The position numbers and the translations under genes are program-made. 64,000 bases of DNA. Origin: Owenia fusiformis. Lineage: Eukaryota > Annelida > Polychaeta > Sabellida > Oweniidae. The notes under the pieces are model-generated. The model saw only the letters and a list, made by a program, of their open reading frames with translations, made no database searches and was not told the DNA's origin. Numbering within the stretch: the stretch's first letter is position 1; the number at the start of each line of letters is the position of its first letter. The stretch covers positions 15,891,915 through 15,955,914 of the forward strand of contig CAIIXF020000001.1 in the NCBI GenBank assembly GCA_903813345.2, in the 5' to 3' direction. This document shows positions 1-62,625 of this stretch, piece by piece.

Positions 1-1151
1 ATTAGTTGTGCAAAGAGTGATTGCGGAAATGCATACGTGTTCGTCTTCTGTTAAAAAGATTGCTTGGAATGCAGGGAATTCGTTTCCTCATGACCGTTGT
101 ACTATATCTAGTAGATGTTCTCTTTGTCTTTACCTTAATGGTATGTGACACTTAATTAGGACAGTTCTTGGCTTATCTTAAGGTGGATTCCGGTTATGGC
201 ATTGACCCGGGGTATTGATGGTTCAGAAAAAGGAATCAAAACCTGCCTAAGATTTCTCCTGATAACCACTGTGAATGATTGTGTTTTATTGTGAATACTA
301 GTACATATATCTAGAACTATTCCTTATGTGAAGATCACTGTATTGTTTGTTTATAACTAGACTCTGCGCGCAGGGTAGAGTATTGCTCGTCATTTCTAAT
401 TTATTCTTCAACCTGCAATTCTGCATTGCAAGGATCCGCAGTATGAAAGAAATGTTACTTGGTTTTGTGGTCTTAGATTGTGATAACCGTTCCAGAATGA
501 TAGGGACGGATGTATGACCCATTGTTGCTGTTGTTGAATTTTGTGTATTTTTGCCACAGAAAAAGTGAAATTTAAAATGTAAGTTAGCTAGAGTGACATA
601 CTTGTCGTTTTCTTATTTCCGCATATGTATGATTGTAATTTTAGTGATCTCACTTATGTATCGTTGTGAAGTCCGAAAATAGCACTGATCGAATCCGAGC
701 ACTTATTTTATCTTAAAAAGTGTATAGTAAAAGCACTAAATCTATTTTACATTGGTTCTTAAGTTTATTTGCCATAAATTGTTAATATATAGCTAGTTAG
801 TAATTAAATAGTAATTTTAAGCAATAAAACCAACATATTCACACTATCAATTAGTCGTGCAGAGAAAATACAAATTAGTATGTGTTCCACTTCTGATAGA
901 AAGATACGTATCAATTTCTATCTCTCTAGTTTATATCCAAATATTAGTAATACCGCTTGCTAAAAGTTGCAATATTTTAAAATAGCCTATAAGCCAATTA
1001 TGTGGCCATATATCGACCCCAGTATGTTGCTCTTGAGCAGGATTATTTGGTGCACAAATTTTAGATTTTGTATGGTGGTTAGTAATTCACACTGGCACTC
1101 TTATCATAAAATCCTCCCAGAAAAGAGCACGTGAGACAGTGAGAAGTATAC
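1..1151. other. Left edge, no exon recognised
   Basis: By position this should be the intron before the last PDE10A exon. I looked on the minus strand for the FY...PCY...L segment that ends PDE catalytic domains and did not find it. Bases 360-376 carry a GACTCTGCGCGCAG-type motif seen elsewhere in the window. Confidence 0.4.
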
Positions 1152-1232
1152 CTCCATCATCGGTAACTCATCTGATTTAGTCCGATCCATCATTGTTATT
1201 GGTGTTTGACCCTGATTCTTTTCCTCATCGCC
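1152..1232 (-). CDS. PDE10A: PDE10A exon 23, variant b: MMDR exon with Glu at the invariant Gln position
   Basis: An 81-nt phase 0-0 exon coding [20 protein letters not shown] and then DELPMME, between TGTCAG and GTATAC. Its length and ends equal variant a. The last residue, aligned with the invariant substrate-binding Gln, is Glu. The frame is open and both splice sites are good, so it does not look like a dead copy. Confidence 0.85.
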
Positions 1233-4200
1233 CTGACAATGTATAACCCAATCAAATTGTTTTAAACTCAATGTGATGACTACAGCACCACATATACTTG
1301 TAAATAACATCATGTGTATCGATCATGATGCACTCACATCTTCGACCAGTTGAAAAAACTAAACAGTAGTCATCGGTCAACTGAAACATTGGTCAACTGA
1401 AAGACCTAAACAGTAGTCATTGGTGAACAACATGCATTCATAGTACGAATACTACACATCTGCTTTGGTCGACCACAAATTACAATTATATTTTGGTAAT
1501 TATAACATGTTAGTCTCATTGAAGTCGAACAAAAGCAAATGGTAATATTTATAACGATCACTGTATCATCTACCTGACTCTGCGGTAGCTCATGGGCTTT
1601 GTCTCGATCCATCATTGGAATGGGTTGGTTTCCTTGTGCCTTCTCTTCATCACCCTATATAATAATATGATTAGTACGACATAGTATTGTCTTTATATCT
1701 AGTAATTATACTTTTAAACATTGTAAATTGTGATTTCTGAAAGGAGGAACACTTTAAAAATCAAAATCAAGTCTTTATCATGCATGTAGTGAAGAAAATT
1801 GAAATACAAACAAAAATAATTGACAGCCTTTAATATTTCATTTCAGGAATGCATGACTAACTTTCACAATGTCTGGTTTTTAATACAAGTATAGAAGTGG
1901 ATTAATTTTGTCTGCGATATTGTTCTTCAAACATAATGCCTGTCGTTCTGTACCACTGTACATAAATATGTGTCAAATGAAATACACGTTTTAAATACAC
2001 TGAAACATTAACAGCACCATCGTATAGCAGCCTACAACTGAACACAACACAGCAACTACGTATACACACAATATTTCTGTTCGGTTGCACATTTATCTAA
2101 CCTGCACATGCAAGAATGTATGGCCATTCAAAACGCTTTGCGTTTTTGTATTTAAAAAATCAAGATTTGTCAGACTTACGTCATGAAACGTACATTGAGA
2201 TTAAAACAATTTCAAATAATTTGACAGTTGGTGCAGATTTAACAAAATGCTAGCAACAGTCCTGTTACCTTTGGAACACACTTTATGTTTACGAGTTCTT
2301 TGATCCCTAAATTTTAAACACAATCATGCAGAACTTTTTGAATGGCTCCAGCATATCACTCAAAAAAGGAATATCAATATAACAATAAGATTGCACTTAG
2401 AAGTCAATTAATTTAAAGTTCACATACTACAGAAAATGATGTATTTTGTTCAGTAACCCATCCCCATGATACAGCAATTTTGCATTTTGCGCCCATGCTC
2501 ATCTTAGATATCAGATAGTTTTATGCAAAATATACGAAAATAAACGTTTCACTATCAAATAAGAAGATCTGTCTTTAATACCTACGTTTCTTATACTACA
2601 CTGTTTTAACTATAAATGGTCAATACACATCTATTACATATAAAGCAAACCTGGCACCAAAATTCCTCCATAATAATAAGGACAAGTTGCTTCTGTAGGT
2701 CCCATGGCTTGTACATTGAGCAAAGATCAGCTGCTGTCATGCTGATACCCATTAGCAATTTTCTAGAAGCAGGTACAACATGGATACAACATAACTAAAT
2801 CATTAACTACATGGTTCTAACAACAAAAAACAGAAAATATCTCCTGAAATACCTCCTGTTGAAGAACCACAATTTTTGTTACGTCGAGTCAGTATTGACA
2901 TTGTTCTGATTCCTATTCGCAAATCGCTCGAGTGCTTTTTGAGGTTATTGTGGATTTTAGCAAGGTGCTATTTTTAAGTTTTATTTTAGATTTAAAGTGT
3001 GCGCCAAAGTTTAAAACTGCGCAGGCGCACCGCTCTCGCTAACCTATATAAAGCGATTACCGAGTACAGGCTTCAGAGGTAAGCCAGGAAGGTGAACAAT
3101 CTTCGTTCCGTGTTGATTCCCCGTATAATCGTAACCAAGTAAGTTTCACCATTGAAATTAAAAATTACTATTAGATATAATTTGTAGATGTTATTTATGA
3201 AGCTATTGAGTGTATGCATCAATCAAATGGCTCATTTTAAACATATCAAAAGTATTTGTGTTTTGTTTCCCAGGGAATTGTATTCCCATATAGTACACAC
3301 ATAAATAGTGTACATTATGTACTTGAATAGCCTGGTTTACATAAATTGAAGGGCATGCTGATTACATGCACACGAGTACATGAATGAAGGCCTGATATTG
3401 ATATAGCTTGCATACCTAAACAAAAAATAAACTCTTCTAATCCCCTAATGTAAACACGGCGGTATACGTAGCCCGATTTATCGGGGGCTTTAAGGACACC
3501 TGTTTAACTCTATTATAACTTTACAATTTCCAAGGGATTTAACCAAATTTTGAAGAAAGCATCAAGAAATGTGATATTACAGTATCAACGTATTAAAAAC
3601 AGTGGTTCTGCAACAGAAGATAAAACCGTAACGGGAGGTATTTAGAATTTTTGGTTTGACACTAAAAATGTGTACAGTAAATAAGTGAGGAAATGTAACC
3701 AGAGCAAGACAAACAGTGTATGTGCGTTGCAGGGTGAACTAATATTTTTTGAGTTATTTGAATGTGGATATTTTGTATGTGGCCATTGCGATGTCTCTGG
3801 TCATCATCATCTGTGAATTTCGAAACAGATATACCGTAAAACAGGAATTCCTTCAAACAGCCACTATATTGTATATGCATACGTTAAAGCGGATGATTAA
3901 TTTTCAGAGTTTAACAGTTCATTCGCATTTTCCATACACATTTCCAAATTTGATATCACAAATCATATTTTGCTTGCCATTACAACCACCCACTCTCTGA
4001 AAATTCCCATTATACATCGATCCCACCAATATTTACCCATTGCAATGTATACTATTACCATTTTATTGCAAATTGATTTCCAATTTTAAGTTTTATGATA
4101 CGCCTTCTCAAACCGAAATGACCGAGGATCGATTAGAATAGGCGACTCATTTATTGGGATACCCAGTAGGCTTACCCTGTACATGTACAATATAATAAGA

Positions 4201-7200
4201 CTATTCCATCGGCTGTCTTTTCATAAGAAAACGCATGTATTTGGTGATCTCCAAAGGATGCACATTCTGTGACAAAGGCGTAGTAATATATAATATTCAC
4301 ATAGATACTCAAAGATCTCTGCAATATGATTATGATACATTATTTGTCTGGCTCAGATTACCATGAATATATAAACTTATAACAAATACAATGGTTGCAA
4401 CTGAGACAACTATTTGTAACAGCATACCAAGCAAGTAAAAGAGTCGAGTTTAGCAATTGATGAAAAGCATGGGATGAAGTAATGTTTGTGCCTATAACCA
4501 ATAATGAAAAAGTGGGTATGTATTTACTGATATTGTAAGACATGATTTACCATTGCATATAAAAATCTAATGAAACCATGCTTCCACGGCGCTAGATGGC
4601 ACTGACCTACCAACTAAGTGTAACTAGGGACATATCAACGTTCATAGGGTTGTCCAAATAAGTCGATTACAAAAACATACATATACACGCCGCACTAAAC
4701 ACTGATTATAAGACATTGCACAAGTTCACAAAATAAAATGTAAATATGACTCTCTGTTGTGTTGTTCTGTTTGTTTTGGTTTGGTAATTTGATTAACCAT
4801 TTCACCACAGCACATTTATATTAACATTCATGACAAGGAGGTCGAGATGAGACATTTGAACATACAGCGTAGGATTATTTGAAGTTTGGCCACCGTTAAA
4901 ACTATTTCGAGCACAAAAATGAGGAAATTGAATTCAAATGGTCATACCACGCATCATAATATGAAAAACACCAATTGCAGTGTTCTCTTCAGTATGTATC
5001 ATTTATCATTTGTAAACTATTATAATGTCCTCTTTTACAGCACATTGACTACTGATGAGTTTGTGCTTTGCCGTGGTGTTATACTTAATCAAACCTATTC
5101 GGAAAACAAAGCCACCCAGAAGCCTATTGTTCGTAAGATATTTCCCCCTGCACATTTACACGTGTATGAAGCCAGCATGCGTGGTGACAACATTTACATC
5201 ACATGTCTAGCTAGATTTGAACATACAAATTATGCATGCATAGCTGATACCTGTGCGTAAAATTCTTCAAAAATTATCTTGACTGTGTCGACTTGCATAT
5301 CCCATGGTTTGGTACTGGCACATAGATCACAGGCAGTCATCGCAATTGCCTTGGCAAATGACCTATTTGAAAGCACGGCCAAATACAATAAAGCATTCAC
5401 ATTCTGTTTGTGTTTATTTGATCACTGCATTACACACAATAAATCAAACCCACTGGAATGAAGAAGTGCAGTGAGGAGAGATAAAATGAAATGATAGACA
5501 GAGGTACGACGATCAGGGCAATCATGCAAATACACTTTTCTAGTTTTGAATACCTGGGCATAGAACTCCTCGAAGATGACCTTGACTGTGCTGACCTGCA
5601 CTTGCCAAGGTTTGGTGCTTGCACAAAGGTCGCTAGCCGTCATGGCTATAGCCTGTATCAACCGCCTAAGTAAGCATAGATATTGGAGAAAATAGCTCTT
5701 CAATTTGAATTTCGAAGTCAAAGTAAAAGAATACTACAGTTTTAACTTCAGGTTAGATAACGGAAGTTTCACAAGAGGAACACACCAGTAATATATAGTT
5801 TACTAGGTCAGAATCAAGACTACTAGAAAAGTATTTAGAAAGATACGCATGATTATAATTTTCTTATAATAATCTTTATAATACAATTGTGTGGATGTTT
5901 ACTTTTTTTAACATTTTTAATAAAAATGCAGAATGACACTAACAGACCGAGTTCATAATGAGTGCAAATAATTTTAGATAATAAAATATAACTTTAATTT
6001 CACAAAATACAGATTTCACCTCAATTTATTTCATACTAAAATGATAATTTTATTAAAATATGTAACATTGGATCGAATTTCCATACCTGTGGTCTTGGGC
6101 TTCCCATGAAAACTCTTTCTTTTCACAAAGATCCTTTAGTTTCGCCCTGTTGGGGAAAAACAATGCCAGATCTGTGGCCAGGATACAATGTTTGATGTCA
6201 CTTAAGACTTTCTTGTATTCATCTGATGTCAGGTGCTTGAATATATTGTGACCATCACGCTGCAAAATGGTGGAAATAGCTGAATGAATAATTGAAATAA
6301 TTGAATTAAATAAACTTTTTCTTACCATTCAATCATTATATTTTACAGTTCATACATTTCTGATATAACATTTTGCTCCCCATATTTTTCGCAATTACAA
6401 TAATATGAATTGAATACAGTTATTTGACATGCATCTAAAATAATAATCATAATCAAACCTTAGAACAAAACGCAAACCGGCTACACAGGAATCAATGGTA
6501 AGATCAAATATGGTAGATTAAAACTCGAGGCTATATACAGTTGATCCTATATGTGTTTATTCCTTTCAACTTACCGGTTGATTTAATATATGATAACATG
6601 ACCAGATAAATTTTCTTTAGGCCAATAATAAATCAACATATACATGCAACACATTTCAGTTAATGACGAACACTTAATTCCCTATTCAACTGTGTACTAC
6701 ACCTGTTTTGAAATCAATAAATAGACTAAAAATTAACGTGTTAAGCAAACATTATGACAACACGTTTTGATGTATATGTAAAGGTTTTGACATTGTGGTC
6801 ACTCTGTAAATGATTTTGCATTGCATTGCATTGGTTAAATAAAATCATTAAAGCATACCCCATTAAAGCATTCCCAACAATGACAATATATAACAACACA
6901 TGCGATGAATGGTACAGTTCTTACTTGTAAGATTGAGATGGTGTGATTAAAATGATGTTGTTCCATAGTTGAAGTGGAGTATATGGCTGCTAGGGGACTC
7001 GCAGTCTTCACCATGAAGGCATTTGTGTAACCCCGGTGATCAACATCGTGACAGAGGCATGCAACAAACAATGCCAGTCGCTGCAACATCAAATATGGGT
7101 TCATGTGACCGATACAACAGCTCATGGTTACAACATATTTTGGGTGATACCCATGCATATGATTGGATGATCACACTGCATTTTCATATTTCATACCATG

Positions 7201-10200
7201 GACATGAAGGAATGGATAGGAATGTTTAGGGAACTGGTCTCTCCAATTTAGTTTTGTTTTAGCCCAATAGGCCACACAAAATGGGTGAGATTACTGAGCC
7301 AGCGAAAGATTCCAAAACATTTCCTCAAGTTTATTCATCCATTTTTTCTCACATTCCATACGTGAAAAGTGTACAACATAAATATCCTGCTTCCTGGAAA
7401 GAATGCTATGAATTAGTAAGGTTGTGAGGTTGGAGTTTGGGTAACATAAAGCGTGATACCACATCCCATGCACAATTCGGTTATACCTTGTGTACATGTA
7501 CATTCACAATACCACAGGGTATGTACCTGTAGGATAGTCACTGTCATATTAAAGTGGTGGTGTTCCATAGTTGATGTGCTATATATATCAGCTAGAGGAG
7601 AACATGATTTCACCATAAATGAGTTGGTCTTCCCTCTGTGGTCCAGATCGTGGCATAAACATGCTACATACAATGCCATATTCTGCAAAAGTACTACAAG
7701 TGTGGGGAAATATTTAACAGACGAATGAGAGGGAGATACTTTAAGCCAGATTTTGGAGCGTTTGTCCATTCTAAAAGTATGCATATATGTTTTTCATACA
7801 TCCTAAATTTTCGTATCATGTCCAGTGATACTTTGATTTGGTTAACAGTGATTCAATTAGGCTACTTTTCTGTTCTTTTTTCTCATCGGATCTACAGCAA
7901 AAGACATGGAGCTGCAAAACACTACATAACATTCATGTAACATCGAAAAAACGCAATCAATTCAGCATTGGGACTGATTGAATCATAGTATTTTACTAGT
8001 TTCATACAGCATAGACTAACTGTAGTTTACACGAGCTGATGATTTTATGTGCAATTGGGGGTACCACTTGTAAGTATATCAGGACATGTCCTGGGTGTTC
8101 CGTATTACCGTCCATATTTTCGGTTATTTGCAAATGTTTATTTGTTATTTCTAAAGATAGTCTACTATAGTATAACTTATATAGGCAATTTTCCACAGTG
8201 ATTATCGAGCAATCATTTTGCACAAGATTCCTGATTAATGACCTAATTATCAGGGTCAGTGAAATAAAATCATTACCTCAAGAGGGTTGAATATATTGTC
8301 CGTGGTCTTTATGACAGTGTACATGGCGTGGGCGACCGAGAAAGCATGGCTCCAATTGTGGTATGGCACATTACGATAATTCTTTCTCACAGTCAATGTG
8401 AACTTTATCAAACTGCTAATGTCGAACCTTGAAATAATAATATGCTAAATTGATATATAATTGATGATTGTTTATATGGTTAAAAGTTATTTCTGCATAT
8501 CAAGAATTTGAAGACGTGCTAGACCGATTGATTTATGTGTATGTTATATAATATATTACAGAATGCACTGTTTGCACAGGAGTTTGATTTTAACCCATGG
8601 TAATATTATAATGAACTGTACCTAAATAGAAAGAAAACTTGAAATTATTTTATTACAAATGCCTTAAATTCATTATAGTAAATGTGTATGTTTGTTAAAA
8701 TGAAGAGACAATATCTACACGTCTAGTTTTAAAACGGAAAACATTTACGCATAAAGATAAATATTGTATTGGTCAAAAATACCAATAATTATTGCTATTA
8801 AATAATAAATTAAGGTGTTTGTAACTACACTTTGATTACCCATATGAAACATTTATATATAACTTTAAGTACATAAATAATGCAATAAAGCGCCCTAAAA
8901 TTTTATTCTATGCACAGAAAAAGCTGATAAATCCTAAAATATAACTATTCACATTATACCTTTGGTCCCCCTCTTGGTCGCTATTATGTGAAATAGTATA
9001 ATTGAAATGTTTAATATTTGTGAAATCTACAACAATCCTTTAAGTAAAGGAGCATGGAAGGTATTGCAACAGATTTCAGACAGTCATATGTTGGATTTTG
9101 CCTATTTTGGGAGGATTTGTACAGGTGCATATGCTAGGCCAATGCATAAACTCCATGACAAGCACTCATAAAGATGATAGAATAATTGACTCTGAGACAG
9201 GAAGGGTGCAAACACCCCACCAACACGTTTTTCCTGAAATGTTGTCCTAATTTTCGGCCCTTTCCACCCCTGTCTCTTCAATGCTCGATGCATATATATG
9301 TTGCGTTTTGAGACAAAGTTAACCTCTTAAAAGGAAAATGGATTCATTTGGGATAAAGTGGAAAACAATATTTCCCATGTTATTTTCCCATAGGGAAAAC
9401 TCATGCGATCCATTGTTTTCAGCTTGATTTTGGTCACCTATAAACCCCTGCATGAATCCTGTTTTCCTTTAAAGAGGTTAGCGGTGTCTCTAAACGCAAC
9501 ATACTGATGCATCAAACATTGAAAAACAGGGGTGAAAAGGGCTGAAAATCAGGACGTTTCAAGAAAATATGTTGTTGGGATGTTTGCACTATCCCTGTCT
9601 CAAAGTCCAAATCGTTTTATCATCTCTATAAGTGATTGTCCTGGAGTTAATGCCTAACATATGCACCTGTTCCAACATATGACTGTCTGAAATCTGTCGC
9701 GATACCTCCCGTGTTCCTATAAAGACAAGTCGCTTTTTACAATACTCATAATATTTATAGTAATTATGCTTGGGAGATTGCTCTACTGGTCAAAATAGGT
9801 CTAATATCATTAAGACTAATCCTTCACCAAATTTGTGTTGCATTATCTCTCAAACAAATGGTAGGCATATGCCTCAGTAGTTAACTGTTAAAACAATATC
9901 AAACAACACCAGGTATGGATTACTTGGTGCTTTGCTAGAATTACTACTCTGTAAGGACAATGATTTGGTGAGAGGGCAGAAAAAAATATATTTAAGATTC
10001 TACTATACCTTGACATGTTGAAGATGTCTTTGAACATGTACAGGACATACTGGGGCTTGTCTTCATTCAATACTCCCCATGGCGAGAATTCGTATCTAAC
10101 AAATACATATGCATAGGATTTTAATGACAGTCATTGGGTGATTGTTTCTAGTATCAGTCAATTTTAATTTTGTAGGCGTTCTAGGGTTTGTTCCTAGTTT

Positions 10201-13200
10201 AAATACGCTTCTACATATCACTACAACATCTGCATTAATTATAGTAAGTTAATTGTATAATTGCGTGCGTTTCACAAAACTATGACTCAGTTGTAAACTA
10301 AATGATAAGGAATCCAAATATATTAGAATTCTAATGTGTAACATCCTCCTAACGTAGGGTTCCAGATCTAGACATCATCCACTACTAGATTGAATGACAT
10401 CCGGCACCTTGCGTTTGGAGGATGAATGTGCAAATAATGCAATATCAAGTTATTATACTGTAGTATTGGTTATTTCAACTCACAGTGTGACATCAGGTAG
10501 TGTTGTGGGTATGACTCGGTCTTTGTATTGAGAAAACTCATCTTCTGTGCATTGGCTATGGTAGGATAGTACTTCAAGTGCAACCTTGTGTTTTTGTTCA
10601 GACCGACGGATTTTATCATAAAGCTATAATGTAAATGCACTTCGGTTAATTCAAATCTGTTATGCAATCCTGAATGATGGGCGAACATTGTTTCTAATGC
10701 GTTGGATCATAATTGGGGTACTTGGGTTTGTTGACTTGTTTCTTGCCTTCGTCTTAATACACTTGGGTTCTTCTTATGTCACTGTGCTAACATACATGTA
10801 CCATATAAAGTGAAACCGGTAGTGACTGAATTACTTCTTCTGTTATTTTCTGTTTTAATAATCATTTTATAGATATTCATGATTTTATTTATGATTTTCT
10901 GTCAGTTGCCTGGGGATTTAAACAAGAAACTAGTTGCAACGAAATGAAATCATCTTATGTTTTTTATTAAAATGTTATTACAGTAAAACCTGCGAACAGG
11001 GAATGCTCTTGGGACTGGAGGAAAGTTTCCTTGTTCAGAGGTTTTCCCTATAGAGAGGGGCCGCACTTTCAGCAAACTCAAACTTGCCGAATAAGATTAT
11101 TTGTATATATATTGATTGATTGTACAAATGCCGATTCCATACTTGGTTACATTCTCCCCATGTTGATTTTAGCTGCTGCTAGCGTCTGATGATGTCTAGT
11201 TGATGTAATCATTGGTATGATGTGTAGAGATATATTGCTAAGAACAGAATTTCAAGTTTCAGCAACCCTATTTTATATCATTGATAATCTAGAAGTTGGA
11301 TCAGTAAAAGATTTAAAGAGATTTGGCTCAACATGACCGTGTACTTACTATCTATCAACTCCATAAAACAATTGTGTCAGTCCCTAGATTATCACAACTG
11401 ATTTGATGTAATTAGGTTTTTGAAAGAAAGAATTGGTGTCATGATAATAAGTAACAGATTAGTATTAGTTTTAAAATAAATCAGGGTAATTAACAGTGGG
11501 TGGGATGCTACATCATGTCAACAATTAGCTTATCTTAATCTCAATCATATTAATCCAAGCTTTTTATATTCAGATATTGGCTTAAGACTTTCACACCTCT
11601 GAAAAATAATGGAATATACAGTGTCACCAATATTCCATATTCCTTGTTCACAGGTGAATTTTCATAATTTGCCCCAAAATAGTGTTCCTTGTTCCCTGTT
11701 CACAGGTTTTCCCTACAGAGAGGGTCCGTTAACATATAAGTCAATGGAAAAATATTTGGTTCTTTTGAAAAGCATTCCTTGTTCATAGGTTTTCCCTACA
11801 GAGAGGTATTCCATCGGACAGGTTTTACTGTATATATATATAGCAACATCATACTTATGTCCGATCATAAGTTCGAATAATAGTTTCAAATATTAATTGT
11901 ATGACATGTATATAAGACCAATGTTAACGCTACCAGGGGGAATCGGACATGCAGACCTTACTATTTATACATGTTATTCTGTCTTTTGAAAAATTCAACT
12001 TGTAATGTATATTTCCTAGTTTTTCAAAGAAATATCAATTTAAATATCAAGACGTCATGCTTTTCTCATACTTATAGAACCCAATGTGGCTGTCACTGGT
12101 CATTTATTAAAGCAGGAAAAAAATTGCTTCATGGATGACAAAATGTTTCTACTTTCCCGGTAAATGTAGAGTCTCGCACCATACGAATATAATTTTAGGC
12201 GATCTGTCTGCATGGGGTGGAAATAAGGTAGTCTAGTACAGTGTAGTATGAAATTGAATGATATACATGTGTGTCAAATATCAGGCAGAAATTCCTTAAA
12301 ATGACAAAGATATGGGGAAACAGAGTTGCCGTTTTTTACCACCCTGTATAAATCTAGAGATAGTAAATACAAGACGTAAATGATTATGAGAACAGGATTT
12401 ATGGTAGTAGCAAGAATTTCAAAATCATTATTTTCTTAACTAATGCTAAATTATTGGAAACACAATTGCATCAATATGAAACGTTGACTATTGGCATACA
12501 TGTTACATAACACTTGGACAACATAGATGTCAATCATAAATCGATGGCTAATACCTAATGATTTATCGTTATTGTTTACCTTTGCGTGGTGAAGGGCCAA
12601 GCCACAGTACACTGCAAACGTTTCGAATGACTCTTCGTCTGATTTTGTAAACACGCCATGTGTTTTATTCACCATTTGAACGACTCCTATTATGCTATAT
12701 AGTACAAAATAATTTGAATTACATTGAGTACGATGAGTCGTTAAAACTTTGAAACCTATTATGCTATATGGTACAAAATAATTTGAATTGCATTGCATAC
12801 GATAAGTTGTTAGAACGTTGAGATCCTTTTGTACAGATACCATTCTGTTGTGTAAGAGTCAAATCATCTATTGTATAACCATTTAGTATGGTTCAATATT
12901 ATCTAATGTCCAGGTTATAATGAAACATTTTGGGTGTTGGAATAAGGTAATGTACTGCTTAGTCTATTGTTTCAAATTATTGCAGTTAGTTTTTTGTTGG
13001 GCATTGTTAGTCTTTAAATATTCAAATATCTAAGACAACACTTCGATTCAACACAAACGAAATGATCTGAATATGTGATATCACATGTAAGACAAATAAT
13101 ATGAGGACTTACTCTCGACTTACTGTCTGACTATTTGCTACTATATCTTAACTATTCACAATGTCAAATGGAACATATCAAAATTACATAACACAATATA

Positions 13201-16200
13201 GGAATATTATTTTCTTACTTGTACTTCTTTTGACTGTAAGAGGAAAAGGGAAAATATAGAGAGATTACCTATTATGAGCAAATTAAAGCAGAATGTAAAT
13301 GAGTACCAGTAATACAAGCATACACATGCAAAACATACAATAATTCATTTCAAACTAACTTGCTTGAACTTAGGCATATGGCGTTACATATACGATATAT
13401 AGCCAACACAATAAAATATTATATTTTATAAAGCAAACACTCAATTGAAGAAAACGTGGATACCACAGGGGCAAATATGCAAGAATATACATGATTTAAA
13501 TATTAAGACCATGCATCACACACAATAGTTACATCAATATTCTTTCTGAACTTGTATCGAAAGTCAATGACAAGCCCTAAAATTTGAGGCAAAACTGAAT
13601 ATGAATCAAACTAAAACATGGATATAGTAATAACCAATAATAACCAGAGGATTGGCCTCATATTATTATTAAAATAGAATCCATAGTGCCTCAATAATAT
13701 ACCAAAATATATTAATCATAAGAATAACATTTCTAAATGAGCCATGCATTTTAAGAGCATAAAATATGATTAAATAGTTTGAAAAGATATGACAAACTAA
13801 AATTTAATAATTAAATAAAATACTATGACTATTATAATGGGATTGTTAATATCACAACATACCTTCCACGAATATATATTGGCATACACAGAATTGTTTT
13901 CGTAGTATAGCCTGTCTGGGCATCAACATCTCTGTAAAATAATATATAATATTATATTATAATGGATTATACTATATTATACTACACTATATTATATTAT
14001 ATTGTATTATACTATACTATATTATATTATATGTCATGCCAAGATTGTGCATCAAATATCTGGTTTAGCTTATGGTCAGGTAATTACAGTAAAAACAGAG
14101 TGATACTTTTTATTAATAATGAATTTACACGTTGACTCATCGAATAACCACAAAGATTATCTACTTTATAAGCGAGAAGTAATATCTACATCTGCTCTTG
14201 AGAACAATTATCAAAATGGACAGCTCTAAGTTGGTGTACTTATGTACCTGTTGAACCTGTCATCGCCATAAGCATCAGAGATGTTGAGAGTATTACCGGT
14301 AGTCGCTACATGACCAGCGATTCCCTTGTCCATTGGAAATCTAAAAGTAATTGAATTGCATGATTAATAATTGTAAGATCAAAAAATTAAAAACTATTAT
14401 ATATGGGTTATCAACACAATGAATAATCTTGATCAAATGATATTTAATCATAAAAACTGTTCTTTTCACCACAAATGATAAGTGAAGTATAACAGTAGTG
14501 GACAATACAACAAATAGATATAGGTGAATGATAAGGTTCACGTTCTTGCTTTTAATCATCGACTACAAATGTAACACCATTTCATTGAAGTAATGTGTGT
14601 ACAGACGTCTCGTATTCAACCATATCACAGGATATGCCGCAATACATTATTCATGTACAATATTGATAAAGGATTGATTTCAACAACTGACAATGATTGA
14701 TCAATAAAATATAGTGTGGAATCAATATCGCTTTCATCTTCATGCCATATCTAGTAAATAGACTACGTGTATAACAGACGCGTTGCAATGGTTGACCCTG
14801 GTTAATAGATACCCTTAACCCTCAGTCACATAATATATCGGAAGCACTGGTACCCACCTGGTTATAAAGACGTAACGTAACTTGACAAAATGGATAAACT
14901 TCCGTCGGAGGAGATATTGATTTCATAATAGTAACACCCAGTTACTGAAAAACTACTTATCAGTAACGAGCAAATATATCCAGCAGCTTCAATAATCAAG
15001 TGAGAATTCCCTCACTTCAGCATCCAGGACATAATTGGATACAAATCGACCTCTTTCTTGGTGCAATAAACATTTCCGCCGACGGAAGTTCATTCATTTT
15101 GTTATGAAGACGTTGCGTCTTTATAACTAGGTGGGAACCAGTGGTAAGGTCCACTTTTAGCAATGTCAACAATTTTACACTGGGTTTTCTGACTAGAAAA
15201 GATGGCAGGTCGCAAATACAGGTAGTATGTTAAAAAATTACATACAAATGAATATGACTATCATTCCTGTATCTTTTAGAAAGCAAATGTTAACTAGTAA
15301 TCTGAACCTGACCTAATTTCTTTTTGTTGTCCATCTACAGGCTGAGCACCCAAACCGTTGCCTATATCAAATATCCGAGCGTATAATTCTTTTGTTTGGT
15401 TGTCAACCAGGAACAGTGATGCTCTATCAGCATTTACCAATTTTTGAGCAAAGTTCTGAAATATAATTTTTAACAGTTTACTTATTTATCTATTTATTTA
15501 TTTACTATACTGTCCAGTGTCCAACCTATGATACAGTCTTATCAAACTCCTCCTTTATATCATTTTACATTTTGTAGGATGAAGAACATCAAAATACTCT
15601 CTTATTTTGAAAGCGAAATCGTTTGTATATTATAAAATACCACTCTATACGAATCAGTATACTGTTAGGCAATTGCAATTTAAACAGACGAATGAAATAT
15701 TCTTAATAATAATAATAAAACTATATTCCACTCACCATAATTTTCATGATGACTGTGTCCATGCTGACTATATCTTGGAATATCGACCTTAAAATATAGT
15801 TATATAGAGTTGTACATATATCTAGATTAAGCCAAGTTTTAGTTTTTGATATTACAGGTGAAATAAAACCAAACATAACAATGTTGTTACAAAGAATTAT
15901 TTAATATATATTTTGAATAGGGGAAAACATAAAAATTTACATGTAATAAGAAATGTCAAACCAAAAACATGTTTTTCCGACTAACTTACTTAGTGACTGC
16001 GAGTAGAAACTCATTCAGCTTTCGCTGTTTTGTCATGCCGTGATACATCTGAAAGTAAACGATTTAGGTAAAAGTTACCCTTTGCATTCACATGACTTTG
16101 CCTCTCAAAAGAGAGCTTCGTCTTTTAGGACATTTCAGCTGGACTCTGCGCATAGGGGAGGTAAAAATCATTGGATATCATTCAAAACAATAATCACTTA

Positions 16201-19200
16201 GCTTTACAAACTAGTTTTATTTGACTATGAGTATTCTCGTTAAAATTTTACTTTATAAATTTAAACTTAGTAAACTCAATGCAAGAGAAATATCATGACT
16301 AACAGGAAACGCTTTACAAATAAATATACATACATAACTCACTCGGTGAAACATGATACAAACAAGAGTTACACACGTAAGATTCTATTCAACAACTCAG
16401 AAATTAATTAGAAATGATAACCAAATCAATGTCTGTGACATGTGTTCTTTTCTAGGGTATAATTTATATCTGTCATAGTCTTTCATTTAGATCTAATCAA
16501 CAAATTGCTTTACGAATCATAATTCAGGATGAAACTAATCTTGTTCATTACATTCACTTAGGAAAGCTTTCATACGTTCACCTTTGATATTTTCTCTTCA
16601 GGAAAAAATAGAACCACTATATAATTTGATAGGATATAAAACACTATATTGCCTAATTAATCATTTATTAAGCTAGGTATCATATGTTGAGAGTGATAGG
16701 TAAATAACATTTAACAAATAAATTCTCAGTTTTTAACTAATGATACTAGTAATGAAATATACATGAAGAATGTTAGATTGTGTAAAATACTGGTTCAACC
16801 ATGAATGCAATTTTTCCTCACAGATTGAATGCAAGGTTTGAGAATACATGTGCAAGTATAAGCATGGCCTGTGGTGCTACTTGTTATCATTTACATTTTC
16901 TATGATGCAATATACATATTGTAAAATGAATGATAAATTGGAGTTGAATTGAAACTAGGGCAGTCAAATTCTATAGGAAACTTTTAGTAAGGAACCTTAA
17001 AGATCTATTTTCAGTTCAATAGTACACTGATCGAAATATGGAAGCACAGGTGTCCAAAAGGGGAAACGATCAAACAGTATTAAAACACGGATAGAAAAAA
17101 GTTTAAAGAGAACAGGCCGAAGCATATCCCCAGTATGCCAAAAATATCAAACTAAATGAAAGAATATCCTTTTGACTGCTGATATGAAATTATAAATATT
17201 TTATCATGCCAAAGGGTTATATATAATATCATAGTATCTAATAAATGATTTTGGGAGCCACGTGAGAAATATATTTGATGCAGGAAAATAAGAAAGTGGA
17301 AATGTTTGCCACTGAAATTTCCTTTCAATAGAAGAGTAACATGCATATTTCACAATCTTGTATGAATGAAATGTTCCATGCTTTTGTCGATATGGAGTGT
17401 TCTAATGATGCTTGAATCATGGTTTGTGCATAAACATTGTTTCTTTTGCACGTTAGATTATTATAAGGGATATTGGGGGTTGGTCCTTGTGGGTTATATG
17501 TTCATTTTTCTAGTGGTTTGTAATACTCTCTGATCTTCCCCTTTGTCAATTGTGCATACATATTTACATCCATTACTATAATGACTGCAAATCTTGATTT
17601 CCACATTACTCAATTTAGAGGAGGTGCTTGCATCTATACATTGATTAATATGTAAACAACGACATTTAAACATAAACAACATCCATACAACTATAGCATG
17701 TTTAAGATCATGACTACATTGTATATCTCTTGTGGATTAAATATCCTTATCACATCGAAATACCTCCGCATTGTAGATTCCAAAAGCTCCCCATACCAGT
17801 ATACTGTTACAAATCTGCCAAATATATGCAAAAATTAGTTGGGAAAGCGAGCAGCAAGATAACCCAGGAGTAAATGTTCAAAGCCAAACTAAGGAGGAAA
17901 ATAAAACAAAGCTCGGTTGTAACAAAAATGAAGCCAGGTCGGAAAAATTATAAAACCATATGAAAAATAAGGGGGTTGCAACATTGCTGATCCTGGAAAA
18001 TGGCCAATTGCCACTATACGGTTTCATTATTTGGATTGACTATAAGTTAAGTATTATCATCAAATTGATAGCCATATGCAAATATGTGGGGAGGTGAGTG
18101 GCAATTGACTAAGTTGTTTCCTCCCTAACTGAGCTTTGGGGTACCACAACAAATACCATCTACATAAGTAGAGCTATTTATTTCAATCCTGGAGGATTCT
18201 GGGTTCCAGTAGAATGCGCATTGTGGTTTCTAAATTGACCTTGACATTTTACCTCAGCACTAGAAGTTGCTACTCCACCCCACATCAAAAAACTGCTTGT
18301 AATCTGGAATAGATGCAATGTATTACAATACAGTAAAGTGTTAGCACAACACAAAACTTATTAGTTATTTCTACAATGTTAACAACATTATTTCTAGGAA
18401 TCCATGATAGCCGACAGATGAAGAGCGCCATTTTGGAACATAGTCCCTCTTGCTTGAAATGGACAGTTGGACATTAGAACTCACTTAGTTATGTATTTAT
18501 GTAATCATTCAAAAGTGATCAACCTGTTTTGAAAAGCGAACTTACTACACAATTTGATGATTTGATTGAAAGATAATTTGAAAATAAGGATGTTTGATAT
18601 TCGTCAAAAATTCCCGGAACATCGGAATAAAGTTCATCGATATTTTGAGCCACTGTCCTTCTCAAAGCAATAATAACAATGTTTTCGCTAACTCCTATAT
18701 GCGGCTAATATGGTCACCGGTTGAAGCCAAGCACTAGGGATGTATTTTAAGCAAGAATGCATGTAAAGGCCTATGAGATAAAGCGGTAGAACAAACAAGG
18801 GGAAATTAGTCTGATTAAATAGTAATGTGCAATCATTACTAGTCAAAGAAGCTGCATCTATTGAAGTTTTTCATGTATCACCCTGTTACAAAAGGAAAAT
18901 ATATAGTTAGTTGGAAAAGACGGCTCATTATAAAGTAAATTCGTGTAATTATGAATGTAAGTTCCAAGCTTGTTATTGTACTAACCGAGCCTAGCACGTC
19001 TACGGGATCTACACCTAAAGCGGCCATTACCTCTTGGCATGTTAATAGCACCGGGCACCACTGGAGGGCGCTAGACGTCACCTGGTGGAGAAAACTCCTC
19101 AGTCAATAACTAGCACAACATGCAAAGCTTGGTGCACAACATCTAGCATTCTCAAAATACACAAGTTTGTCATACACTAGTACATTTTCAGAATCTGATA

Positions 19201-31200: not shown

Positions 31201-34200
31201 CTTGCTTCAAGATCTGGATCACCCCCTTATCCGTATCTACTTCAACAACAACAAAGAATCTGTTGTTGGAAAGTGGGGTATCTTGAACCAAGACTATCAA
31301 CAGATCAAGTATGTTTTCATCGACATATTACTATAGGGTTACTCACCATTGATCCCATTTTCAACATCTGATCCTCTACGCTTGCCATTTTCCTTGTTAG
31401 CGTTTTGTGTTCGTTTGATGATCCATCGTTCTAATTGGTCACTATTGACATTACGAACGACGTATTTCTCCAGAAACTCCGGATTATCATTAAGGAATGA
31501 CGTCACTGCATCGGGTGTGAGATCTGAAAAAATAATTCACTTAAAATGAACAACTTTGTAATTACATTCGCATGTGACACACATTAGTAATTGAATCGAT
31601 GTAGTTCAATATACAGACAAACATGCACACAATGCAGAAGTTTTATGACGAATTGATCAAGCTAAAAGAAAATTAAATGGTTTAAACATCCGCAGTTTTT
31701 ATGACCAGTATGGAAATAATGTTGCTGGTGTTCTCTCCAAAGACATATAAGAAGGATTGATCATCTACAATCATATTGTGTTGAAAATGAAAATATCTCA
31801 TCTTAGTTTATAACACAAATATAGATTCTAGTAGATGCCATGTATATGCCCTTTATAACATTAAGCCAAGATACAATGGTGAATCTGCATTTGGGTAACA
31901 GCAGTTGAGGTCACACAGCATGAAAATAATTGTTTCAATGTTTTCAATGTTAATTTCAATTGAAACGTATATTCAATTCATCTATCCATGCATGGTAATG
32001 TTAGCTTATCATATTCCAATTAATACACCATCCTGGTCAACTACAGGATCTCAGAGAGTAAAAACTACTCCTGGCAACCATTCCTCCATTTTTATATTTT
32101 TTATTGTTCGAATAATGATCACGATGATGCACCTCTGTATTAGTGCAATTCTGTGGTGCCCTATGAACATTATTGAAACCAGACCACCAAAACTAACCCC
32201 CAGTGCTCCGCCTATCACCCATACTAATACATTTATTTCGCTGTACTCTCTATTCATGTTGTTCACAGATATATCTTCAAGTGACGTAGTGAAGCCGTCA
32301 GGCATGACATATTAATCCAAGTTATGCTGTTTCAGCTGATTCACCGACCTACCCATTGTATAGGCTGTATCTCTTCGTGAAGGTTTCTTGAAGATAGGGC
32401 TACATGATGTTACTGAATTGCCATTGCCCATGTCGTCTCTCAGTATAGTTAATGAGTAAGTTCTCTAACTCAAATGATCTGCGTTACATGGTCATTTTTG
32501 AGGATTAGTAGACTGTCGATATATTGCAAGAGCTTTGGCTCTATATAACTACCTACTATGGCATTTGATGCATTTGCCACAGCGTTAAGCGGCTTTACAG
32601 GTATTAACCACTGATTGTATGATTTAAAGTCCAAGAGTTATTCGTCCTAGAAATTCACAATGACGTTTTGTAAGTAATAACAATGTCCTCAGCCAATATT
32701 CCTGAAACTTTCTGTGTGTAATGTATGCCCTTTCTGTATTCACAATATCCTTCACAAGTCTATATACTAGCTCATCGCTGTAAGCTCTTAGTAGCTGTAA
32801 GAATATACCTGATCTAGTCCTTCGTCCTGATAGATATCGCGAAAGCGTTGCATTGATCTACTTCAACTCGACTTTATTCAAATAGTTCTAGACTTAACAT
32901 TGAGAGCTCACTGCATCAATGATCTCAAGAGCGATTTGTCACATTGTAAAAAAAATTTGTCAAGGTTCATGGATTTTCTTTTCGAAATAACCTCAATTTG
33001 TTAATTCTGTGTTACATTTGTTTATAGGCATGTATCTAATATCCTCATGCAATAAGCATAGTACAGTTATATGATAGCCTCGCGTACCTTATACATTGTA
33101 CAAGGTGTGAATCTGTTTACAGTAAACACAATGTGTCAAGGGATGTTTTACAACACTCACTTTGTAAACACATCATGTATATCCGTATGCACTAATAAAC
33201 TTGTTAAGTTTGTATTATCACCGGACTGTTTAAGTATCGATTTGTCGGAACATATTATTTATTAGTTTTTTCTTCATTGTTGTTTTTTCTAGTGTTGCCC
33301 CTTGTGCTATCTCATTGAACGACGAACTCCCATCTTGGATACATAGATATAAATGCATCATGTGCTACAATACAGAAGTGTGTAGTCGATTACTTAAGTC
33401 TTTACTTATTAATGCGTTTTCATTAAATGCAGCTTTTGATCTGCAATGGATTCGAAATTATTGGAGACGTGAGTTCTTTAGACGCCATCTTTAGTTGGTG
33501 GAATAACATTCAATGTTTGCATATCAGTGATTTTGCAGTAACTAGATAAATATATAAATAACTCATACTCGATCATTTATTTAATTTGGTGTTGCTTTTC
33601 AAGAGCACCCTTCAAAAGTATAATATACTTCTGCACGTTGAATCAATGTTTTTGAGATCAAATCAATGTCAGGGTGTACCTCTTACCTGAAAGGCAGGAC
33701 TACGTCACTGTACTATTACAACTATCGCTATTGAATTTAAAAGTAAAAATATTATCATTTCTTTTCAACCTACGCACGTCTATCCATTCACTGACTGACA
33801 TGTAATTTATATATATATTATTTTAGATATCATCACATATTAATGTTCCAGCATGTCGTAATTAAACAGAATGGCATTACCCAGCAAAATTCACATTATT
33901 TGTTCATCATACTTACCAACTCCATAAAAATTAAGCAAATTATGGCTTTTGGGAGACGCTGTGTCTGACGCCATCAATTATCTGTGAGTTGAATCCAAAT
34001 TGATTTAAAGCAGTCGTTGCACCCTTCGATTATTAGTAGATGTAAGTTTAAGAAATTGGCCAATTTGACCTTGATTTGAAGTGCATACGGTCTACTCTGT
34101 GTCTACTCCGATGCAAATGTACATGTCAGGGTCGAGATTCCTTATCTTAAAAATCAAATGATGATGGTTATATACGCTACTGACCTGACAATATGTTAGG

Positions 34201-37200: not shown

Positions 37201-40200
37201 TAACGAATCAAATTAACATGAATCTATTTTCTCTGTGAACACGTTTCCAATGTCTTGTTAGAGTTAACACCGTTATTGTTAATTTCTACTTATATTCGTA
37301 TTGGTACGGAGGAATCTATATTGTAATGCTCATCACAGTCGAATCTTTTTCGTATATTTCAATAAGGAAGGAGCGAATAAGAGGGCCATTATTTCTCATG
37401 ATAGGAGGAATCAAAAAAAACAGGGCGCAATCTTTATGTCATTGTAGGATTCACAGTAGCCTATGATATATAAATGGGGCTGATAGATCAGAATGTCTGT
37501 GTGATGTATAACATGTCATGTGTGTCTGTCGTGTATCAGCACAGACGTATCTACACTGTACAGACGTCACATCAATTGCCTTGAAACGTGACATTTTGTT
37601 GTTGTGTGCCAAACCATCCTAGACCCTGTCAATAATGATATTACTTAATCATTTTGACAAGTTAGGAGTACACTCTTTTCTGCAAACTAAAAAACTAGGT
37701 GACACATTCATAAGACACAATAAACGAAATCAAAAAGACATAAATATAAACAAATCTATTTCACACATGAATATTCCAAATACGTGCCACACAACACTTC
37801 CAAAAAGGTTCCGTGATATAAGAGAACATCAGCCACAAGTGACGTAGGAAAGTCGAATATCAAATCGTGCAGGACCAAAAAGCAATTAGCAGGACTTTGT
37901 TTTCAAATTAGTTTCAAATGAGCATGTAAATCGGATTGGTTTCTTCTTTATCATGTTTATTACGAATAAATATGCATGCAGGATTATTTTAAATTGGAAT
38001 ACGCATGCGATTGCTTTCAGTTCAAGTTAGCATACACATGGGACTGGTGTCAAATTAGCATGTACGTGGGATTGTTTCAAATAAGCATGAACGTGGTAAT
38101 GGTTTCAGGTTAGCATACACATGGGATGGACTGTTTCAAATGAATATGAACGAATTGGTTTCAAATTAGCATAAACATGGTATTGGTTTCTAGTTAGCAT
38201 GCACATGGAATTGTTTCAAATTAGCACGCTTGTGAGATTGTTTCAAAATAGCATGAACATGGTAGTGGTTTCATGTTAGCATACACATTCGTTCAAATTG
38301 GAAATTTCATGTGATTGTTTCAAATTAGCATATGATAGTTTCGAATGAGTATGCATATGGGATAGTTTTCAAATTAACATGTATGGTTTTGTTTCAAATT
38401 AGAATGTACATGCGATCGTTTCAAATTAGCATAAACATGGGATTGTTTCAAATTAGCATATACATGGGATTGTTTCAAATTAGTATATACATGGGAATGT
38501 TTCAAATTAGTATATACATGGGATTGTTTCAAATTAGCATATACATGGGATTGTTTCAAATTAGCATATACATGGGATTGTTTCAAATTAGCATATACAT
38601 GGGATTGTTTCAAATTAGCATGCACAGGGAACTGGTTTCGAAATGGCATGCAATCGGGTTGTTTTAAAGTATAGACATGTAATATCGTTTCTAATTTGCA
38701 TGCATGGATATGGGATGGGAGAGAATTATCATGCTCATAAAAGTATGTCTACCTACCAAAAGGGCAGAGGGCATCCGTTGATGTGGTACTGTGATTTGAT
38801 TTGTTGTTATTATGGTGATGGCTGGCAGATCCAATTGTATTGTGTCCTAGAATGAATAATAACTAAGCTTACTCACTAGTTTTAAACCAAGTGAATATTC
38901 TCAAATCCCAATATAAACTTCTTTTTCCGTGTCCAATAAGTTAAAAGATGTCTTATGACAACGAACGTCACATAACCTACTCAAATAAAAGGCCCTGCGT
39001 TTGGAAATTGAATCTGTACCAGGAATATCAGAAGAAATGCGTACTATCAATAATTATATTGAATAACAAGTCATGACGAAAAAACACAAAGGACGCCATT
39101 CGAAACAACAACAAAAAAACACTTCTCTTACAATGGGAAATAATCTTATATTTGAAATAATATTATTTGGAAACTTCACAAACACCATTCTTAAACATAT
39201 GTGGACTAATCAGTTTACGTTTGTATTTTTAAAGCAAACCCTCTGTCTTGGATATGATTGTGTATTGTTGAAATGCTTTATTAAGCGCTAAACGAAATAT
39301 GTTAATTGGACCTGAGAGCCATGGCATTTATGGTTAGCATGCGCGCAGAGTCTAGTTACCTGAACACGAAGCTCTTTTAAGAAGCGAAGTCGAAAGAATG
39401 CAAATGGTAATTTATGGTTGAGGAATAGGAACAAAAACTAGCTGTATTTTCCACCTGGTGATTATTGTTGAATTATTGTGTTAATCACTATGACGACGGG
39501 TGGCAGAAGAAAACAGGTTGGCACTCTTATGGATTTTGAGAATGGGTCTTCCCTGTTCATCATCGTTGTAGACTGAATGCTCCATCTTATAAGTGTTCTA
39601 ATAAAAAAAAACGTTTTTCCTGCAAGAGTATGGGTATTGTGGTTTTTTTAACAACAACAATCAAGTACAGTTCTATTTTGATTATATCAAATGATATTTA
39701 TAAGTCGTTACAATTTTAAGTATAATTTGGAATTTTGACGTCGCTACATCTAAAGTGTAATGTTTGAAAGAGCTGCTGTTGACAGTTAGCCTATGTCTAT
39801 ATTTCTAGTAGCTCTTAACAAGAGTCCCAAAAGTGGATATTTTATTGGACATTGAACTATCGTTCAAATGATCTATCGTATGAGCAATATTTGACGTATC
39901 AGGAAAAGATATTAGGGAAGTTAAGCAACACGTTTTTAATACACCTTGTACGTGAACGTGTACAATTGAGGTCTCATACATGGATTAGTCCTTCCCAGTA
40001 ATTACTTGCCCAGTTGAGTATAAAAGTATGAGGGTCCAGGGGTCATAATAGTACACGCCCACGTACACTTTCTCTTATTCTCCGTATTGACACCTTGTTG
40101 ATGGACCAAAAAACCTGTCGATCAAGATGAGATCGGAACAACTGAAACCTTGTCGTCGATCAGGTCAAGGTCGGTTGAATTTGGAACAACTAAATATCAT

Positions 40201-61580: not shown

Positions 61581-61710
61581 GTGTACATTCATATTGCATC
61601 ATATTGCACCGCATTGTATTACATCATATTGCACCACATTGTATTGCATCATATTGCACTGCATTGTATAACATCATATTGCACTGCATTGTATTGCATC
61701 ATATTCCGTA
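61581..61710. repeat. 25-bp tandem repeat, array 1
   Basis: Units CATCATATTGCACCACATTG then TATTG, about five copies. Followed by unique sequence that is duplicated 913 bases downstream. Confidence 0.85.
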
Positions 61711-62038
61711 TTTACCATTTCGTTACAGTTTTATTACATAAAATGTTATTTATAAGATTATAATTTTCAAACATTGAAAATATTTTATACAATATCAATT
61801 AAAAGACATGAAATGGCCCAAAATAATATATTTTCAATGGAACCCTTTGCAAGGGTCACTTCAACATAACGCCACGTGTAATCTGTATGCATACGCCCTC
61901 TTTTAATGACCATTATCTTTGAAACCATATTAGAATCGAATCTGATAAAAGTGCGCATCATGGTCCTGGATGTGCTGCGCGCTAGAATCGGGAAATCTCA
62001 AAGTTCTCCTCGTTAGAGCCATCAATATTATCCAAAAT
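61701..62038. repeat. Direct duplication, left copy
   Basis: From ATATTCCGTATTTACCATTT to ATATTATCCAAAATTG, nearly identical to 62614-62952 (913-bp offset, a handful of differences). Confidence 0.88.
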
Positions 62039-62338
62039 TGTACGGAAAGCGATAGGGGACATGCGCATAATTCAAAATCGAATGGAGTTTTAACATGGGA
62101 GTGATATCACACACCGCGGCCAGTCAGATAGATTTCATCGCGCACTGAATGAATTACAGGGGCCGCGTTGTGCAAAGTTAATTAAAATAAAGTGCGCACA
62201 AATTCCGGCATTCAGTGCGCGATGAAAAAATGATTATCTGTGAATAAATAACGAATAAAAATTCGTGGCACCACGAATTTGATTTTTTTCGAAAGACTGC
62301 GGAGTGAACCAGCGAAATGACAATTTTGGATAATATTA

Positions 62339-62625
62339 ATTATTTTATTGCATTTTATTGTATCATATTGCACTACATTGTATTGTATCATATTGCACTG
62401 CATTTTTTGCATCATAGAACACTGGTTTGTATTGCATCATATTACACTACATTGTATTGCATCATATTGCACTGCATTGTATTGCATCATATTGTTCTGC
62501 ATTGTATTGCATCATATTGCACCACATTGTATTACATCATATTGCACCACATTGTATTGCATCATATTGCACTGCATTGTATAACATCATATTGCACTGC
62601 ATTGTATTGCATCATATTCCGTATT
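62339..62625. repeat. 25-bp tandem repeat, array 2
   Basis: About eleven copies of the same CATCATATTGCAC(C/T)(A/G)CATTG-TATTG unit. The frame-compatible 25-bp unit gives His/Ile/Leu-rich open frames in several frames, which are not genes. Confidence 0.88.

Follow-up and report, generated by a model that had tools for sequence, protein, structure and literature searches.

Clusters of mutually exclusive exons are well described in muscle myosin genes, where the available portion of PMC3912159 uses sequence similarity, similar length, the same reading frame and the splice-site pattern as cluster criteria and reports seven exon clusters for the myosin of the annelid Capitella. A mutually exclusive exon pair in coq-2 is described from helminths and also from annelids and molluscs (PMC7434440, as excerpted). 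Among the phosphodiesterases (PDEs), 11 conserved active-site residues are listed for PDE10A in the accessible text of PMC12571622: Val678, Thr685, Ala689, Ile692, Tyr693, Met713, Gly725, Gln726, Phe729, Tyr730 and Trp762. In PDE9, the exchange Q453E lowers catalytic efficiency about 50-fold on cyclic GMP (cGMP) and about 5-fold on cyclic AMP (cAMP), and the glutamine is held by Glu406 (PMC3069055, in the part available). The analysis presented here concerns 64,000 nucleotides (nt) of the Owenia fusiformis genome (498 megabases, 525 contigs), positions 15891915-15955914 of contig C1, referred to as the window. Its minus strand carries a PDE10A-type gene for a dual-GAF phosphodiesterase in which exons 10, 20, 22 and 23 are multiplied. 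The copies are likely to be used mutually exclusively, one per cluster in each messenger RNA (mRNA), which would provide up to 36 enzymes with one skeleton and a tuned nucleotide pocket.

The identity of the gene was assessed by comparison with solved structures. The composite catalytic domain matched PDE10A with an E-value of 7e-100 and PDE5 with 5e-74, and the start of GAF-B matched the PDE10A GAF-B 2zmf (E 5.9e-21). PDE5 and PDE10A GAF-B could both be aligned to the end of GAF-A, whose middle part was only partly modelled. Judged by these alignments, the catalytic domain and GAF-B are nearest to PDE10A, in agreement with the first-pass annotation, which had termed the gene PDE10A-like. Exons were identified by reading open frames. 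The gene extends past the interval 1152-18303, as the N-terminal exon and the last two exons lie outside of it (Table 1).

Exons 10, 20, 22 and 23 are present in 3, 2, 3 and 2 copies, respectively, which sets the upper limit of 36 combinations. Counts of 2, 2, 3 and 2 and a maximum of 24 isoforms had been proposed in the first-pass annotation. The counts are correct for exons 20, 22 and 23, but the third copy of exon 10, designated exon 10a, replaces the proposed maximum by 36. All nine copies described earlier are present with the lengths, phases, GT-AG sites and open frames attributed to them. Within each of the four clusters the copies are alike in length, phase and GT-AG sites, and all frames are open. 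Neighbouring similar exons of like length, frame and splice pattern, as used to define the myosin clusters, were thus found in all four, and the proposed architecture of mutually exclusive exons was recovered.

To compare the copies, AG..GT segments that agree in length and phase were collected from either strand and scored. Scores between copies were 218 for exon 20, 148, 103 and 100 for exon 22, 87 for exon 23, 30 for 10a-10b and 36 for 10b-10c, and the top plus-strand segment for any cluster exon reached 11. The peptides are homologous but diverged, as had been claimed; the one pair that does not rise above the plus strand is 10a and 10c, with a score of 11, the value also reached by the top plus-strand segment for exon 10b. 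Among the remaining minus-strand segments, the one at 12630 scored highest for exon 10b (15); it is formed by the end of exon 16 and probably encodes the corresponding GAF-B helix. For the other modelled exons, neither segment scoring nor tblastn with the individual exon peptides, run against the window plus 10 kilobases (kb) beyond it, gave a convincing second copy; exons 3-5 and 7 were left out of this test, and exons 2 and 16 were covered by tblastn only. Within this scope the exons between the clusters are single-copy, as described before. Each of the exons 10a, 10b and 10c, when placed between exons 9 and 11, runs gap-free across the GAF end in the alignment with PDE10A GAF-B, and the weak GAF domain scores are 19.8, 17.4 and 18.0 bits, respectively. 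For exon 10a a longer in-frame reading to a second donor is possible (96 nt, 15 additional residues).

All 12 catalytic combinations are open when read from exon 17 and comprise 367 residues. Five of the 12, covering all seven catalytic copies, were scanned for their fit to the Pfam domain PDEase_I and scored 273-286 bits, with the highest score for 22c and the lowest for 23b. Wrong sets of exon 22 (ab, bc, ac, abc or none) led to a premature stop in five of five cases.

The silent sites of the copies are saturated (silent-site change pS 0.76-1.04 over the clusters and 0.76-0.97 in exons 20, 22 and 23), which indicates that the duplications are old, and the changed replacement sites (pN) amount to 0.15-0.39 in exons 20, 22 and 23. 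Amino acid identities between copies are 39/52 in exon 20, 28/37, 18/37 and 19/37 in exon 22 and 17/27 in exon 23. In simulations without selection at the same nucleotide divergence, none of 2000 runs matched the identity of any of these five pairs. The same applies to 10a-10b, which share 7 of 17 residues (0/2000). Protein similarity in exons 20, 22 and 23 and in the pair 10a/10b is above the no-selection null.

Pocket positions were mapped by counting along the PDE10A structure alignment. Eight of the 11 residues listed in the accessible part of PMC12571622 fall into exon 22 (five) and exon 23 (three). In 22a, 22b and 22c, the position of Val678 is occupied by Ser, Ser and Met and that of Tyr693 by Phe, Phe and Met, and all three copies carry Gln at Thr685, Val at Ala689 and Ile at Ile692. 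Exons 22a and 22b are identical at the five pocket positions and differ elsewhere. Exons 23a and 23b share Met at Met713, harbor Ser or Met at Gly725 and Gln or Glu at Gln726. The metal motif HDxDHRG is intact in both copies of exon 20, and the second Asp is present in all copies of exon 22. The earlier placement of the clusters in a GAF-A helix and three active-site parts is confirmed by the GAF and PDE10A alignments, and these are the elements that the proposed exon choice would alter.

The invariant glutamine is the residue directly before exon 24. It was read by eye in the other PDE loci of the genome and is kept in 13 of 13, namely C5, C1:14.31 and eleven more (the C7 locus was left out; C1:33.79 is near-identical to C1:33.88, and C10:26.88 resembles C10:29.64). 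Exon 23b differs from 23a in 10 of 27 residues, nine of them besides the exchange of Gln by Glu. The counterpart of PDE9 Glu406, counted back from the glutamine in the PDE9-type exons of this genome, lies four residues after the metal Asp, at the Val678 position of PDE10A, if these exons have the human length. Exon 22 sets this position to Ser or Met, and two of the swapped exons would consequently carry both partners. Exon 22 would thus determine the position that steadies the glutamine (Ser/Met) together with the Tyr693 position (Phe/Met), and exon 23 would place either Gln or Glu in the purine clamp. If Q453E is a valid analogy, isoforms containing 23b should be weak enzymes in which cGMP hydrolysis is lost about ten times more than cAMP hydrolysis.

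The counterpart of exon 22 was matched in 14 PDE loci, and 3 of them contain it in full diverged copies: the PDE10-type gene of the window, a PDE6/5-type gene and a PDE9-type gene. The PDE6/5-like gene on C5 contains the second-metal exon twice in tandem (8035376-8035514 and 8035823-8035961, 139 nt each), with 31 of 46 residues alike, pS 0.75 and pN 0.19, and it also has two homologous C-terminal exons near 8039714 and 8041574. The PDE9-type gene, on C1, likewise contains two minus-strand copies of the second-metal exon (14315517-14315621 and 14311143-14311247, 105 nt each); 28 of 35 residues are alike, and 19 of 29 base differences are at third positions. A retrotransposon-like open frame lies between these two copies. 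An explanation of the double match as a retrotransposon artefact was rejected, as the two exon copies flank that frame. A fourth locus, at C1:33.8, holds near-identical exons 95 kb apart, recognized by eye as PDE4-type at C1:33789200 and C1:33884450, which are either a recent duplication or an unpurged haplotype. In a tree of seven sequences and 35 positions, the C5 pair grouped together with a support of 0.94 and 22a with 22b with 0.92, and the placement of 22c received 0.37. The tree fits independent duplications in the C5 gene and the window gene.

Parts of the same exon, including its splice sites, are found in recent tandem arrays at three other PDE loci. In the PDE10-type gene on C11 the acceptor and start of exon 22 lie in an array of 103-nt units (3 units, 99 percent) near 21120128-21120435 (L031 7129-7436). 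At C9 the acceptor and start are arrayed in frame and open in 87-nt units (5.9 units, 95 percent) near 2255270-2255784 (L019 2171-2685), and at C7, in a gene that appears PDE1-like by eye, the end of the exon and its donor are arrayed in 59-nt units (5 units, 96 percent) near 38070350-38070645 (L029 121-416), with further matches at 38071720-38072006. As a control, homeobox loci were inspected, and 2 of 12 hold tandem arrays with a period of at least 30 nt, one of which runs up to the beginning of the homeobox exon. Because of this, the partial arrays on C7, C9 and C11 were kept out of the count of alternative exons; arrays of this kind at splice sites may be characteristic of the genome. The array ending at the homeobox exon (L009 479-1497) has 76-nt units in 13.4 copies.

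Several points weigh against mutually exclusive use of the copies and against its proposed effect on the pocket. The clusters were described here from genomic DNA. Exons 10, 20 and 23 have lengths divisible by three, so that double inclusion would leave the frame intact and an active exclusion mechanism is needed in these clusters. Exclusion by short-intron crowding was rejected, as the introns between copies measure 191-2488 nt. Docking/selector RNA structures were sought in 15 arrangements over the clusters by comparison with dinucleotide shuffles. Four arrangements scored high (0, 0, 0 and 3 of 60). Against 1000 real segments, the three with zero gave 0/1000 and 21/1000 for 10a/10b and 44/1000 for 22a/22b, and the two pairings of the 10a/10b arrangement at 0/1000 overlap by 2 nt only. 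Such a structure is therefore doubtful for clusters 10 and 22, and in these arrangements none was found for clusters 20 and 23. The copies of exon 10 are short, and the identity of 10a-10c (4 of 17 residues) was reached in 88 of 2000 simulations and that of 10b-10c in 281 of 2000, which indicates weak constraint on 10c. The Glu of 23b is one base away from Gln (GAG for CAG), and the Q453E kinetics come from PDE9, not PDE10. Finally, tandem arrays beside exons and splice sites elsewhere in the genome show that duplication as such is common.

The low constraint on 10c, the frequency of tandem duplication near exons and the altered invariant residue of 23b, with which the Pfam score drops from 281.5 to 273.4, would also be in line with a single working exon per cluster, the others being decaying or rarely used duplicates. 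This is unlikely, as the proteins encoded by exons 20, 22 and 23 are conserved despite saturated silent sites, splice sites are intact, stops and length changes are absent, and 22c even has the top Pfam score. The copies could furthermore be alternative but not exclusive, with clusters 10, 20 and 23 skipped or co-included in frame or with exon 22 acting as a poison-exon switch via nonsense-mediated decay. The lengths divisible by three are compatible with the former, and the stops caused by wrong numbers of exon 22 with the latter. However, a doubled HDxDHRG segment or M-loop would presumably be hard to accommodate in the PDE fold, exon 10 occupies a gap-free stretch of the GAF alignment, and poison exons need no protein likeness, which makes this explanation quite improbable. 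An assembly error that merged haplotypes or paralogous loci into one gene, named earlier as a possible refutation, is very improbable: the near-identical PDE4-type exons elsewhere on this contig demonstrate that the assembly contains duplicate or haplotype-like segments, but the window copies are too diverged for haplotypes and interleave with single-copy exons, their intron flanks are unrelated (58 nt per side, ungapped identity 0.16-0.41), and genome searches, which covered exon 20 and exons 22-24 and not exon 10, gave a best match outside the window of 68 percent.

In the preferred interpretation, mutually exclusive use of one copy per cluster, exons 10, 20, 22 and 23 were each duplicated in tandem long ago and every copy would be spliced in. 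For clusters 10, 20 and 23, whose lengths preserve the frame, a nuclear mechanism would ensure exclusivity, and the likely effect would be a tuning of the nucleotide pocket with respect to activity and cAMP/cGMP preference. A more far-reaching and tentative extension is a combinatorial code of the purine pocket. According to this, the choice of exons 22 and 23 might swap the residues by which cAMP or cGMP is held, and tissue-specific splicing might set the preference; the products of 23b might be natural cAMP-biased or nearly inactive forms. In such a code, 23b subunits would bind the nucleotide, associate with active subunits and reduce the hydrolysis of cGMP. The second-metal exon might be a recurrent target of evolution: given its full diverged copies in PDE10-, PDE6/5- and PDE9-type genes, the swapping of this pocket part may have arisen more than once within a single animal.

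The genome contains a second PDE10-type gene on C11, in which one copy each of exons 20 and 23 was detected; a counterpart of exon 10 was looked for in this gene and not found. Over 221 compared positions, 128 residues of the C11 gene and 121 of the window gene with its best copies are identical to PDE10A, which indicates that the two are old paralogues. As far as these identities suggest, the usual function of PDE10A need not rest on the window gene by itself. Contig C1 also harbors Hox genes, which by their signatures are taken to be Lox5 (one gene with a KLTGP tail), Lox4 and Lox2 (two with UbdA-like peptides) and a Post2-like gene. They mark the genome as lophotrochozoan and not vertebrate, and vertebrate PDE10A is thus a distant comparison. 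An Rfam scan gave no matches at the gathering score, and a COX1 search for the mitochondrial genome gave no match.

The coordinates of the gene are compiled in Table 1. A 69-nt tandem duplication spans the acceptor and first bases of exon 16 (window 12686-12821). In the intron between 22b and 22c, a TATA-like box followed by a GT donor-like site was seen by eye on the plus strand (window 3000-3140), possibly a promoter or the end of a mobile element. Tandem repeats of 25 nt and 27 nt are located at 61592-62618 and 38021-38621 of the window, respectively, and diverged dispersed repeats near 60.6-63.3 kb.

Table 1. Exons and introns of the PDE10A-type gene (window positions unless indicated otherwise).
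Feature	Position	Strand	Properties	Basis
N-terminal exon, assigned to the same gene	31347..31523	-	177 nt	matching exon in C11 PDE10-type gene, E 4e-10
Exon 10a	19031..19081	-	51 nt, phase 0-0, GAF-A end	AG/GTG..GAG/gtaatg; gap-free GAF alignment
Exon 10b	18253..18303	-	51 nt	length, phase, GT-AG, open frame
Exon 10c	17764..17814	-	51 nt	length, phase, GT-AG, open frame
Exons 11-16 with introns	12580..16048	-	GAF-A end, linker, GAF-B; single copy	GAF-B match 2zmf
Exon 19	8277..8427	-	151 nt, single copy, YHNW motif	
Exon 20a	7527..7682	-	156 nt, HDxDHRG metal-binding motif	
Exon 20b	6925..7080	-	156 nt	
Exon 21	6087..6259	-	173 nt, single copy	
Exon 22a	5554..5665	-	112 nt, second-metal Asp helix and pocket residues	
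Exon 22b	5251..5362	-	112 nt	
Exon 22c	2651..2762	-	112 nt, Met at Val678 and Tyr693 positions	
Exon 23a	1574..1654	-	81 nt, last codon is the invariant purine-clamp Gln (1574-1576)	
Exon 23b	1152..1232	-	81 nt, last codon is Glu (1152-1154), replacing the invariant Gln	
Intron from exon 23b to exon 24, part inside window	1..1151	-		
Exon 24	L001 9646-9734, beyond window start	-		open-frame/splice-site reading
Exon 25	L001 8987-9101, beyond window start	-		open-frame/splice-site reading

The discrimination of cAMP and cGMP by PDEs and the role of the invariant glutamine have so far been argued from engineered mutants. If the copies are used as proposed, natural Gln and Glu versions and two versions of the adjacent residue would make this question testable with evolved enzymes. 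The list of enzymes in which splicing exchanges the pocket would gain a second-messenger enzyme, and the gene would show a route to many PDE activities from few genes in one animal.

Muscle myosin, as described in the available text of PMC3912159, resembles the window gene in having several clusters of the same frame and similar length in one catalytic domain, including some near the nucleotide site. It differs in being a motor protein and in that exclusivity is shown by expressed sequence tags or complementary DNA for many genes, whereas it is predicted for the window gene. The exon 6a/6e switch of coq-2 (PMC7434440, excerpt) is similar in that two mutually exclusive exons of 134 nt each, not a multiple of three, remodel the core of an enzyme and change its substrate. 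However, coq-2 has one cluster, with a function shown in C. elegans, and the window gene has four putative clusters in a signalling enzyme. The PDE9 mutant Q453E of PMC3069055, in the part available, carries the same exchange of Gln by Glu at the invariant purine clamp as 23b, but it is an engineered point mutant of another PDE family, whereas 23b would be a natural exon choice with further differences. Reports of mutually exclusive catalytic exons in a phosphodiesterase were absent among the matches listed, which is a weak negative. Vertebrate PDE10A is closest to the window gene in its catalytic domain and GAF-B; the window gene differs from it by the exon arrays and, with respect to the residues in the accessible part of PMC12571622, by Phe/Met for Tyr693, Ser/Met for Val678, Ser/Met for Gly725 and Gln/Glu for Gln726. 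Compared to these systems, what is new is the type of enzyme concerned, how many pocket residues fall under the choice of exon, and the natural exchange of a residue treated as invariant.

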